From positions 1 through 33,083 of the IMG/VR virus record IMGVR_UViG_3300025809_000065: DNA of 33,083 bases, one strand, 5' to 3'. The notes beneath the pieces are model-generated. The model saw nothing but the letters and a program-made list of their open reading frames with translations. It did no database searches and was not told the DNA's origin. The position numbers were made by a program, and so were the translations under genes. Of this stretch, positions 3,802 to 10,233 are shown in pieces. This DNA is from a virus. The first letter of the stretch is position 1. Every line of letters begins with the position of its first letter.

Positions 3802-4371
3802 TTATTTAATTAATGTAAAATCTCCGTTAAAATAGTCTTCAGCGTCTTCGCTAAATAAGCCTCTTATAACTTCTCTGTATTTCTTTATAGAGTTATACAA
3901 GCTGCTTCTACCTATACCTATATCTTTAGATAGCTTATCTAATGATAAACCAGACGTAAAGTAAGCTATAAATACGTTTCTATGATAAAACTCCCACGTA
4001 TTAACCTCTTCATGTATCTTAGCTACTAACTTCTCAAATGCAATAGATTCTAGTTCAGACGCCTCTTCAGATACTAGGTTATTAATAGCTCTATCCATAA
4101 CCTCTTGATCCTTCACCTCACTGTTGACTACGTTTTTCTTTTTCTTACCGTCAAAGTAAACACTTCTTAATGTCATATACATATAAAAGTCATTAACATC
4201 ATCCTCTCCATAAGTAAGGTTTTTACCTTTTTCCAGATACTTCCAAACCTTTAAGTAAGCATCTTGAACTACGTCTTCAACGACAGAAGGGTTGCAACCC
4301 ATACTACGTACAAGTCCAACCCATCTCTGGTGCTTTCCAGCTAACTTACTTAATTGTGTCTTTGCATTCAT
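3802..4371 (-). CDS. Phage-encoded ECF-like RNA polymerase sigma factor
   Basis: I start this 189-residue protein at 4371, not at the ATG 54 nt upstream, because sigma homology begins at MNAKTQL and the upstream stretch falls over a candidate promoter. Residues 15-50 match sigma region 2 (WVGLVRSMG, then VEDVVQDAYLKVWKYL), which binds core polymerase and melts the -10 box. Residues 132-172 match region 4, with the helix-turn-helix LSLDKLSKDIGIGRSSLYN, which reads the -35 box. Between them lies a 55-residue acidic linker with no region 3, as in ECF sigmas. I infer that it drives the six late promoters with the AAC-N15/16-CGTTATA motif, which fits ECF-type boxes in spacing and in the CGT core. 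It is encoded in the early operon, as expected for a middle/late switch. Confidence 0.8.
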   Translation of the reverse strand: MNAKTQLSKLAGKHQRWVGLVRSMGCNPSVVEDVVQDAYLKVWKYLEKGKNLTYGEDDVNDFYMYMTLRSVYFDGKKKKNVVNSEVKDQEVMDRAINNLVSEEASELESIAFEKLVAKIHEEVNTWEFYHRNVFIAYFTSGLSLDKLSKDIGIGRSSLYNSIKKYREVIRGLFSEDAEDYFNGDFTLIK

Positions 4372-4394
4372 TATATATTGTTTTTTCGTTTCAA

Positions 4395-4426
4395 CTAATA
4401 TACAAATAAATACTAAGTTTCGCACT
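4395..4426 (-). promoter_or_regulatory. Weak host-type promoter candidate before the sigma gene
   Basis: Minus strand TATATTAG at 4402-4395 resembles the TAnnTTTG box, but the position 20 nt upstream reads AGTG instead of TTTG. The 8-mer TCGCACTA (4420-4427; TAGTGCGA on the minus strand) overlaps the expected upstream box and could be an operator. Supported mainly by the better start at 4371. Confidence 0.3.
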
Positions 4427-8072: not shown

Positions 8073-8101
8073 TAAAAAAGAGGATTATTTCTAATCCTCT
8101 T
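8073..8101 (-). terminator. Intrinsic terminator with GAAA tetraloop
   Basis: The minus strand folds AAGAGGATTA / GAAA / TAATCCTCTT, a perfect 10-bp stem closed by GAAA and followed by TTTTA. It stands 23 nt below the stop of the degenerate M15 gene and isolates it from the small-gene string. Confidence 0.9.
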
Positions 8102-8123
8102 CTTAAAACAAACAAAAAACAAA

Positions 8124-8558
8124 TTAAGACTTTATAATAAAACTCATGGGTTTTAAGCTATCTGCATCATAATATACATAGTTAGTATATACACCAATCC
8201 TAGTTACACCTCGCATTATTAAACCCCTTATTAGTTTCATTCTTTTTACAGGATCCTTTATATTAACCCTTACACCTAATCCAACTCTATGCGGATTCTT
8301 TGTGGTTAGTGTTAAGGTTTTTGCATTTTCTTTACACGTATAACCTAATCCTATTTGAAACCTCATTCTTTCCTCCCTAGCTATATCGTCTAATATATAC
8401 ACAGGCAATCTTTCCATGTAGTTCTTTCCAGACTTTACATTACATCTAAAGCACTTACAACCAAACTGAGACCAGAGTAAATTCTTTAATCCCTCTTTAT
8501 CGTCTGCTTCTTTGTAATCAAAAGTATATTCTGGTTTATGTGCCTCTGTATTATACAT
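8124..8558 (-). CDS. Catalytically degenerate M15-like peptidase (pseudo-endolysin)
   Basis: This 144-residue protein aligns by eye with the M15 endolysin at 9868-10233. FGCKC (32-36) matches FNCKC; FQIGLGYTCKENAK (67-80) matches INISSAYRCEAHNK; KNPHRVGLGVRVNI (87-100) matches NSQHILGKASDLVV; and IGVYTNYVYYD (121-131) matches LGKYNTFTHYD. Of the three zinc ligands, the first His is kept (His90), but the Asp is replaced by Arg97 (Asn99 is near) and the last His by Tyr129. It is therefore likely to fold as M15 and perhaps bind peptidoglycan or a partner without cleaving. There is no signal peptide. It is a monocistronic unit with a strong terminator. Its upstream box TATATTGC is 8 nt from the ATG and lacks a matching TTTG. 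Confidence 0.65.
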   Translation of the reverse strand: MYNTEAHKPEYTFDYKEADDKEGLKNLLWSQFGCKCFRCNVKSGKNYMERLPVYILDDIAREERMRFQIGLGYTCKENAKTLTLTTKNPHRVGLGVRVNIKDPVKRMKLIRGLIMRGVTRIGVYTNYVYYDADSLKPMSFIIKS

Positions 8559-8620
8559 GCTGCAATATACGAATAAATAGTAGTATTTGAGCTATGTATT
8601 ATAAATACTTATAAATAATA

Positions 8621-8640
8621 GTTTTCGTAAGTTTTCGTAA
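8621..8640. repeat. Perfect tandem 10-bp repeat
   Basis: GTTTTCGTAA occurs twice in direct succession. The same 10-mer occurs at 3380-3389 followed by GTTTCGTAA at 3392-3400, inside the end of the 3374-3793 gene. The pair here lies between the degenerate M15 gene and a plus-strand promoter and could be a binding site. Coincidence is possible. Confidence 0.4.
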
Positions 8641-8645
8641 ATAAA

Positions 8646-8677
8646 TTTGCATATGTCAAATATTTTTTGTAACTTCG
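8646..8677 (+). promoter_or_regulatory. Plus-strand host-type promoter in a gene-free region
   Basis: TTTG at 8646-8649, exactly 20 nt, TAACTTCG at 8670-8677: fits TTTG-N20-TAnnTTTG with one mismatch. It points right, against every gene, into a stretch with no ORF but strong hairpins. The predicted start is near 8684. Confidence 0.6.
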
Positions 8678-8683
8678 CTTTAT

Positions 8684-8866
8684 CTTATTCAGATAATTTA
8701 ATTATTATATCTTTTAAGGCATCTTTAGATGCTACCCTACGGAGTAGCTAAGATATATATATTAAAACACAAAGTTAAAAAGTTATTTGTATTAGGGGAT
8801 AACTATATATTTTTTTTTAAATAATGTATATATAATCTACTTACAGCCTTCGGCTGGTGTTTTAGT
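8684..8866 (+). ncRNA. Candidate structured small RNA with three-way junction
   Basis: This part of the 376-nt gap has no credible ORF. An 8-bp helix, TATATCTT (8706-8713) with AAGATATA (8750-8757), encloses two adjacent hairpins. These are GCATC-TTTA-GATGC (8719-8732) and GCTACCC-TAC-GGaGTAGC (8731-8748, one bulged A); they share the bases GC, so the first may shorten. Downstream are AGTTAT/ATAACT (8781-8786 with 8799-8804) and a final CAGCC-TTC-GGCTG stem (8844-8856) followed by GTGTTTTAG, a modest rho-independent end. With the promoter at 8646-8677 this gives a transcript of about 180 nt. The same DNA could alternatively be the 3' end of late minus-strand mRNA. Confidence 0.5.
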
Positions 8867-8906
8867 AGTTGTATATTAGTGCGACTTATAAATAAAGTGG
8901 TAAATA

Positions 8907-8938
8907 CTTGTATATGTTATTTATATTTTGTATATTAG
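8907..8938 (+). promoter_or_regulatory. Possible plus-strand promoter, antisense to the holin gene
   Basis: CTTG at 8907-8910, 20 nt, TATATTAG at 8931-8938, a partial match to the host promoter pattern. A near copy of its box (TTGTATATTAGTGCGAC) lies at 8870-8886. It would transcribe antisense to the 3' end of the 8935-9402 gene. Weak. Confidence 0.3.
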
Positions 8939-9402
8939 CGACCTATAGATCTATACTTCTCTATACCTCTAGAGCCAAAGTATGCAATATATATACCTAA
9001 TAGTAAAGATTTAAGTAACTCAATCCATTCGCTAGGCACTGTTATATTAGTGTCAAATGAATCTAAGTAAATTAATACTACTGTAGTAACAGTTAAAAAT
9101 ATAAGACTTAAAGGTCTAACGTTCTTTGATAAGTAAGAATCACTAGCCATATCTGACTCCCATCGTTTAGATACTGACTTCATTTCTTCAATGTCTAACC
9201 TCATAACAGTAAGTGCGAATTCACGTTCTGCATCTGTCATACCGTTATCTGGTTTAGTTATAGCCTCTATAGCTCCCTGTAGATTTCCAGACACTAGGTT
9301 ACCTACAACGCTAGCTGCATCTTTAAAGTTAATTGATCTTAAGAAGTTACCAATTTTAGTTCCTTCTCCGCCATTCTTTTTTAGTTTTGGATTATCGCTC
9401 AT
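8935..9402 (-). CDS. Holin, GTA_holin_3TM-like
   Basis: A 155-residue protein with a soluble N-terminal half containing AEREFALTVMRLDIEEM and RWESDMASDSYLSKNVRPL. Two hydrophobic helices follow (LSLIFLTVTTVVLIYL, about 98-113, and LLKSLLLGIYIAYFGSRGI, about 128-146). The stretch with RWE-D--SDS-LSKN-RP before the membrane helices is the signature of the 3TM holin family first described in gene transfer agents. It would form pores in the inner membrane to release or activate the endolysin. It overlaps the HExxH lipoprotein gene by 11 nt and is the last gene of the late lysis unit; I see no strong minus-strand terminator after it. Confidence 0.75.
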   Translation of the reverse strand: MSDNPKLKKNGGEGTKIGNFLRSINFKDAASVVGNLVSGNLQGAIEAITKPDNGMTDAEREFALTVMRLDIEEMKSVSKRWESDMASDSYLSKNVRPLSLIFLTVTTVVLIYLDSFDTNITVPSEWIELLKSLLLGIYIAYFGSRGIEKYRSIGR

Positions 9403-9847
9403 CTTTAATGTATTTAACTAACTCACTAACTGCCCAATCCCAATTTATATTCTCAGCTACAAATCTACTATGCATCTTAGGTTGCATTAAGAATACTGTG
9501 TTTGTATGTAACGAGTCAAATATATCGTGACTAAGTTCGTGAAATATTAGTATTTTCTTTTGTTTATTACTTAATGAGTTCCAGTATTCAGGATGTACCA
9601 ATACTCTAACTCTTTCTTTATCAAACATACCATCAGCAAACCCAGCAAAAGGAGTGCCTCTAAGTTCATCACTTAATATAACCATAAAGTCCTTCTTTTT
9701 AAACCTTATGTTATTATCTTTCAATATCTGAAAATATTCATCTACAAAGGGTATCAATGGATCATCTACTATGTACTCATAATTTTTACATGAGCTTAGT
9801 AAAGTTATTGATAATAAAAATAAATACAACCCCCTTATATTAAACAT
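9392..9847 (-). CDS. Lipoprotein with zinc metallopeptidase motif in the lysis module
   Basis: A 151-residue precursor with signal MFNIRGLYLFLLSITLLSS and lipobox Cys20. The mature domain contains LIFHELSHDIFDSLH (100-114), an HExxH zinc site (His103, Glu104, His107) with His114 as a possible third ligand. The spacing HExxH-X6-H differs by one residue from the classical metzincin. It lies between the endolysin and the last holin, so it may act at the outer membrane or peptidoglycan at lysis: a spanin substitute, an endolysin helper or a lipoprotein-processing enzyme. The start codon sits inside a 19-bp tandem duplication (9829-9864), and the upstream copy has ACG where this copy has ATG. Confidence 0.7.
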   Translation of the reverse strand: MFNIRGLYLFLLSITLLSSCKNYEYIVDDPLIPFVDEYFQILKDNNIRFKKKDFMVILSDELRGTPFAGFADGMFDKERVRVLVHPEYWNSLSNKQKKILIFHELSHDIFDSLHTNTVFLMQPKMHSRFVAENINWDWAVSELVKYIKDER

Positions 9848-9867: not shown

Positions 9868-10233
9868 CTACCATCGAGCCTCGTGCCCTCTTATATCGTA
9901 ATGTGTAAATGTATTGTACTTCCCAAGTCCTCCTTGAGATATAAACTTGCCATCCATTAATCTATCTAATGCAGTGTAAACTTTGTCTGTAGATAAGTTC
10001 TTTACAACTAAGTCACTTGCTTTGCCTAAAATATGCTGTGAATTTGAAACTCCACCAATATCTTTATTGTGAGCTTCACACCTGTAAGCACTACTTATAT
10101 TTATTGGTTCATCTAATATATCTCTAACTATCTGCAAGTTTTTCGCTAGTATTTCAACATTCTTCCTAACGTCATCAGGCATTTCACACCCACACTTACA
10201 ATTAAACTCTTTTATGTTAAAGTTTTTTGTCAT
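9868..10233 (-). CDS. Endolysin, peptidase M15_3 family
   Basis: A 121-residue single-domain enzyme. FNCKCGCEMP (10-19) is the usual start of M15_3 phage peptidases. NISSAYRCEAHN (45-56) and NSQHILGKASDLVV (64-77) carry His67 and Asp74, and THYDIRG (110-116) carries His111, giving the full zinc triad of D-Ala-D-Ala carboxypeptidase-like enzymes. It would cut peptide cross-links of peptidoglycan at lysis. It has no signal sequence, so it depends on a holin. It overlaps the upstream holin-like gene by 17 nt and lies 20 nt before the lipoprotein gene, forming a compact lysis unit under the late promoter at 10462-10489. Confidence 0.9.
   Translation of the reverse strand: MTKNFNIKEFNCKCGCEMPDDVRKNVEILAKNLQIVRDILDEPINISSAYRCEAHNKDIGGVSNSQHILGKASDLVVKNLSTDKVYTALDRLMDGKFISQGGLGKYNTFTHYDIRGHEARW

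Follow-up and report, generated by a model that had tools for sequence, protein, structure and literature searches.

The window, that is the whole stretch of 33,083 nucleotides constituting the analysed virus record, carries on its minus strand, at positions 8124-8558, an intact open reading frame with an ATG start. Its product of 144 amino acids (pI about 9.5), given here the working name P, is predicted from its fold, its family and its zinc-ligand positions to be a catalytically dead M15_3-fold protein, i.e., a pseudopeptidase. A gap of 376 nt (8559-8934, minus strand) lies between P and the gene for a holin (8935-9402, minus strand; recognised by its match to phrog_3427 and by synteny), which in most loci adjoins P on its upstream side, and the phage's own M15_3 endolysin is encoded at 9868-10233 (minus strand; Pfam PF08291, E 8e-21) with an intact His/Asp/His site. 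The same lysis cassette contains a small lipoprotein-like protein with a HELSH zinc-protease motif (9392-9847, minus strand), seen only in close relatives of the window, which has a weak PF18894 (PhageMetallopep) match (E 1.6e-4, below the cut-off) and is perhaps an envelope-directed lysis accessory. Searches of IMG/VR started from P and from two distant members gave, after duplicate removal, a family of 84 distinct proteins that are 32-92% identical to the P of the window.

The surroundings of P point to a gene with its own expression signals. Flavobacterial promoters contain, between -12 and -5, a -7 box of the form TAnnTTTG or, as a variant, TAnnTTGY (PMC9723704; PMC6847099), and the sequence TATATTGC (8562-8569, minus strand), which resembles this variant (PMC9723704) and ends 3 nt before the ATG of P, is a candidate near-leaderless promoter. 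Taken as such, the box predicts a near-leaderless P transcript, and transcripts of the leaderless type are uncommon in flavobacteria (5.5% of mRNAs; PMC9723704). A -7-like box 2-6 nt before the ATG was found in 37 of the 84 P genes, which as relatives are not independent of each other, against a rate of 1.4% over all ATGs of these loci; E. coli-type sigma-70 sites were fewer in the region than in shuffles. An intrinsic-terminator-like hairpin with a T-run lies some 20 nt downstream of the stop codon of P (about 8074-8105, minus strand) and is conserved in the relatives L003 and L005; it was found by our own hairpin search, contains 13 pairs with only 3 G-C among them, and is not listed by the consensus scanner. 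Such a terminator stands behind 64 of 83 P genes, compared with 141 of 936 other ORFs. The initial annotation of this DNA, which described P as an intact and separately terminated gene, is borne out on both points. The possibility that P is the first gene of an early operon was rejected because of the conserved terminator behind it. A minority of lineages (e.g., L122) differ: no box precedes P, which overlaps the ORF before it or directly adjoins it, and in these lineages P would thus close the lysis operon. Two further elements are located in the gap between the holin gene and P: a perfect tandem repeat of agttttcgta (2 x 10 bp; 8620-8639, plus strand), possibly a site for a regulator, and the hairpin CAGCCTTCGGCTG (8844-8856, plus strand), which the scanner lists as terminator-like on the plus strand.

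The M15 homology of P, asserted initially from its likeness to the endolysin of the same phage, is secure, since tblastn, profile-profile and P-profile matches agree with an M15 fold obtained from an alignment free of active enzymes. Pairwise BLASTP of P with the window endolysin (25% identity, E 0.009 in a single comparison) is too weak and was dropped as a proof of homology in favour of profiles and structure. When cultured phages were searched with P by tblastn, M15 peptidases of Aeromonas phages were matched at E 1e-4; comparison of the P profile with M15 gave a probability of 97.9 and E 3.4e-13, and a search with the P profile picked up M15 endolysins outside its own build set, down to 4e-18. 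AlphaFold2 supplied with a P-only alignment (84 sequences, no active enzyme among them) returned a model with pLDDT 93 and pTM 0.86; a first run with 9 sequences, discarded, had reached pLDDT 56. The best match of the model among solved structures is the zinc DD-peptidase 1lbu (Z 12.0, rmsd 2.7, 116 residues), followed by LysB4 (Z 8.2) and then by Ply500, Hedgehog and VanXY at Z 5.5-8, and predicted viral M15 peptidases match it with E down to 1e-9. As modelled, P is structurally a member of the Peptidase M15_3/LAS fold. Family databases recognise little of this: P scores with no family in Pfam, where PF08291 stays without a match up to E 10, nor with any in PHROGs or NCBIfam, phrog_894 is touched by 5 of the 84 members (best E 0.0014), and weak Pfam matches of some members to DUF7695 (0.0067) and SPP1 gp23.1 (0.017) were taken as chance.

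In the D-Ala-D-Ala carboxypeptidase, the M15 reference, zinc is held by H154, D161, and H197, and the arginine that binds substrate is R138 (PMC11266112). The corresponding site of the window P reads HRY: the first ligand is kept as His90 (codon 8289-8291), the Asp ligand is replaced by Arg97 (8268-8270) and the last His by Tyr129 (8172-8174, all on the minus strand), so that the two ligand changes noticed in the initial annotation are real by alignment. Across the family position 97 is Arg, Lys or Gln and position 129 Tyr or Glu, while His90, the sole canonical ligand position retained, is Phe or Tyr in 8 other complete members. Among the 87 P proteins readable at all three positions the patterns are HKY (37), HRY (35), HQY (7), YRE (4), FRE (3) and FRY (1); the HDH triad occurs in none of them, versus 100 of 100 M15_3 relatives with complete sites. 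The active endolysins of these phages are of two types, C-type (CKCGCEMP...THYDIR), to which the window endolysin belongs, and F-type (DSPD..GSG..M...IHVDxD), and all enzymes of both types have the substrate arginine; this arginine, that of the Tyr-Arg pair, is Thr74 in the window P and mostly Thr or Val across the P family.

The emptied site appears to have been rebuilt rather than left to drift. In the former pocket Tyr73, Arg91, and Asp131 are invariant and His90, Tyr129, and Asp133 nearly so, and Trp29, Glu49, Pro52, and Arg91 are new invariants of the P family, absent from active enzymes. The reading frame is intact in nearly all loci, and pairwise dN/dS, where it could be computed, is 0.07-0.22 for P versus 0.07-0.26 for the endolysin. 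By these ratios P is under purifying selection, and judged by residue conservation its old active-site pocket is not decaying, the pseudo-site positions being among the most conserved. The earlier proposal of selection for a non-catalytic role stands as far as the keeping of a dead homologue with a conserved pseudo-site is concerned; the tie to the phage's own M15 endolysin, which went with it, is disfavoured by the evidence given below. In the P genes of L130, L128, L131, L135, L134, L137, and L138 Phe or Tyr at position 90 is paired with Glu129 (7 of 8 cases), and from this covariation there is a hint that positions 90 and 129 touch. Cys34, Cys36, Cys39, and Cys75 (8457-8459, 8451-8453, 8442-8444, and 8334-8336, minus strand) are invariant in all 16 members of the clade to which the window P belongs, most other P members lack them, and similar cysteines are found in C-type and Aeromonas-phage M15 enzymes. 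These four residues could form a structural zinc site, and since they could hold zinc, the zinc content of the window P is a confounded test of its dead site.

P was initially taken for a paralogue of the phage's own endolysin, and this part of the claim has to be given up: P is an endolysin relative but not a duplicate of the enzyme encoded beside it, because it groups with the F-type and the window endolysin is of the C-type. The grouping of P with two active F-type enzymes, L174 and L175, has full support (FastTree 1.0; SH-aLRT/UFBoot 100/100), its placement inside the F-type group has support 84/76 with the C-type endolysin of the window falling outside, and P shares M48, D57, R106, R120, and D133 with the F-type, all of which the C-type lacks. 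The monophyly of all P proteins, which sit on long branches, is weakly supported (0.72; SH-aLRT 72.7, UFBoot 38). By these trees and shared residues, P descends from the F-type M15 endolysin lineage, which is still in use by related phages. Its closest sequence relatives are active F-type M15_3 endolysins from sister phages (L122, L174, L175) and that of Pseudoalteromonas phage H105/1, which keep both the His/Asp/His site and the substrate arginine that P lacks. With the wider PF08291 (Peptidase_M15_3) phage endolysins of phrog_894, from which it descends, P has the fold and the order of blocks in common; it differs from them by the absence of the zinc Asp and His, of the substrate arginine and of a Pfam M15 match, and by an added N-terminal arm.

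The position of P in the phage genomes is fixed to a large extent. As far as the flanks reach, the 84 loci have the recurrent order endolysin, holin, P, small genes, ERF, SSB, ATPase and a sigma-like gene; the last of these, at 3802-4425 (minus strand) in the window, closes the recombination block in most loci and may be a driver of late genes. The class of the endolysin upstream of P is M15 C-type in 35 loci, M15 F-type in 26, GH24 in 8 and amidase in 2, and in 13 no endolysin was found, 10 of these having a flank of under 1.7 kb. Representative endolysins match Pfam at E below 1e-39 (GH24) and E below 1e-13 (amidase). Comparison of the window with L128, L130, L131, L134, L135, L138, L143, L150, and L171 illustrates that the endolysin slot has been exchanged among four classes (C-type M15, F-type M15, GH24 lysozyme, and amidase) and that the P slot stays. 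When 14 whole records, picked either for the lack of a visible M15 or to check an M15 assignment, were searched for M15_3, 13 were negative, including one record of 38.7 kb; the GH24 and amidase contigs are mostly fragments of 5-18 kb, and the absence of M15 holds for the slot and not for every genome. The persistence of P beside a GH24 lysozyme or an amidase makes a role tied to the phage's own M15 endolysin unlikely, and it is the strongest argument against such a role.

What, then, may a disarmed endolysin relative be kept for? The reading preferred here, with a probability of roughly 45%, is that P is a pseudopeptidase of the cytosol that binds a partner through its rebuilt active-site pocket, in the manner of Hedgehog, and sequesters or blocks this partner. 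P would be devoid of catalysis, the zinc triad and the substrate arginine being lost across the family, and the zinc ion would be replaced by a tethered cation (Arg or Lys97) together with Tyr or Glu at position 129. We infer a location in the cytosol because neither a signal peptide nor a membrane helix is apparent in P when judged by eye. The pocket formed by Tyr73, His90, Arg91, Tyr129, Asp131, and Asp133, together with the new conserved N-terminal arm (Gly23, Leu24, Trp29), might bind a protein or a small ligand, and the partner to be sequestered or blocked is probably not the M15 endolysin. The N-terminal domain of Sonic hedgehog (PMC11266112; PMC4102407) has an M15-type fold as in P (Z about 7), and this fold was there recruited to binding, with partners that dock at the pseudo-active site (PMC11266112); for P such binding is proposed by analogy. 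The likeness has limits, since Hedgehog keeps all three zinc ligands as well as the zinc and is secreted, whereas P has two of the three positions changed and no visible export signal. It is put forward more tentatively that a lysis enzyme lost its activity in the common ancestor of the group, or close to it, and was taken into a cytosolic function outside lysis, e.g., host takeover or counter-defence. Against the preferred reading it has to be said that P, lying as it does in synteny with the lysis cassette, could have a role in lysis that is independent of the endolysin class.

This last thought leads to the main rival, namely that P is a lysis-timing or wall-protecting factor, which would bind peptidoglycan or a lysis protein and delay or tune lysis with an endolysin of any class, passing the holin together with the endolysin or meeting the latter in the cytosol. 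It is close to the initial view of P but is not specific to M15. In almost every locus P adjoins holin and endolysin, in L122-type lineages it comes last ahead of the terminator and lacks its own promoter, and regulators of wall hydrolases are known among inactive LytM homologues (PMC8416486). Yet P lacks the zinc site and the substrate-binding arginine, many lineages provide it with a promoter-like box and a terminator of its own, it is retained alongside three unrelated classes of endolysin and it has no apparent export signal, so that a role in lysis timing is considered unlikely, though it deserves to be kept in mind. The lost arginine and the export signal that is not apparent by eye also weaken two functions suggested at first, i.e., the binding of peptidoglycan and the blocking of rival endolysins.

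A regulator acting on nucleic acids is less probable still. P would here be transcribed from its own promoter by the host polymerase during host takeover, and its basic surface would act on DNA, RNA or the transcription machinery. P is indeed more basic than the endolysins (median pI 9.1 versus 7.8 and 8.3; the charge of the window P is +9.6), ERF, SSB, and ATPase genes adjoin it, and Sigma-A-like boxes lie at its start codon; however, the difference in pI is modest, no DNA-binding motif was found in P, and the terminator separates P from the recombination genes, so that it does not belong to their operon. It is improbable that P, as a moron-like unit, serves superinfection exclusion or blocks the lysins of rival phages and so shields the infected cell from competitors. 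The autonomous unit of promoter, gene and terminator in many lineages would fit such a role, but without an apparent envelope-targeting signal P should have no contact in the periplasm with tail lysins or free endolysins, the ORFs read include no recognised integrase, and four diverse P members matched none of the PADLOC anti-phage defence profiles. There is very little to be said for P still being an enzyme with another metal geometry or chemistry: His90 is kept in 90% of members, Asp131 and Asp133 are conserved and the window's clade has its four invariant cysteines, but the residues found at positions 97 (Arg/Lys/Gln), 129 (Tyr/Glu), and 90 (His/Phe/Tyr) leave no conserved metal site there, and the cysteines are missing from most of the family. 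That P is a decaying, functionless relic of an old endolysin, as the loss of catalytic residues might suggest, is hardly credible and is already contradicted by conservation, given an ORF kept in nearly all loci, dN/dS of 0.07-0.22 and the new invariant W29, E49, P52, and R91.

Dead relatives of wall peptidases that are kept by selection are a known kind, and the inactive LytM-domain regulators of the LAS group resemble P in this respect, although they have the LytM fold and are cellular (PMC8416486), while P has the M15 fold and belongs to phages. What is new is an unnamed phage family of M15 pseudopeptidases without the catalytic zinc site. In a 2024 review of pseudopeptidases (PMC11266112) M15 is represented by Hedgehog and phages go unmentioned, and a literature search for phage pseudoenzyme endolysins or phage M15 pseudopeptidases found none. 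That a family of 84 or more dead M15 proteins occupies a fixed slot suggests that phages, too, recruit disarmed lysis enzymes. A slot that swaps the class of its endolysin and yet keeps P separates the lysis enzyme from the job of P, and makes the latter testable. The Arg or Lys in place of the zinc site would also offer a clear case in which to study how a metalloenzyme fold outlasts the loss of its metal. If P does serve a cytosolic function outside lysis, the family would be a widespread phage counterpart of Hedgehog from which zinc has been lost altogether.

In the present searches P is found only in uncultured phages. Two scans of 84,980 prokaryote genomes gave no P, and so identified no prophage host, tblastn of cultured phages with three diverse members gave only distant M15-like or unannotated regions and no carrier, and the P profile has no match in Flavobacterium phage 11b, Nonlabens phage P12024S or Olleya phage Harreka_1. 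Because of the promoter motif and the similarity to Nonlabens, Flavobacterium, and Olleya phages, the host is probably flavobacterial, and many of these phages probably infect marine flavobacteria.
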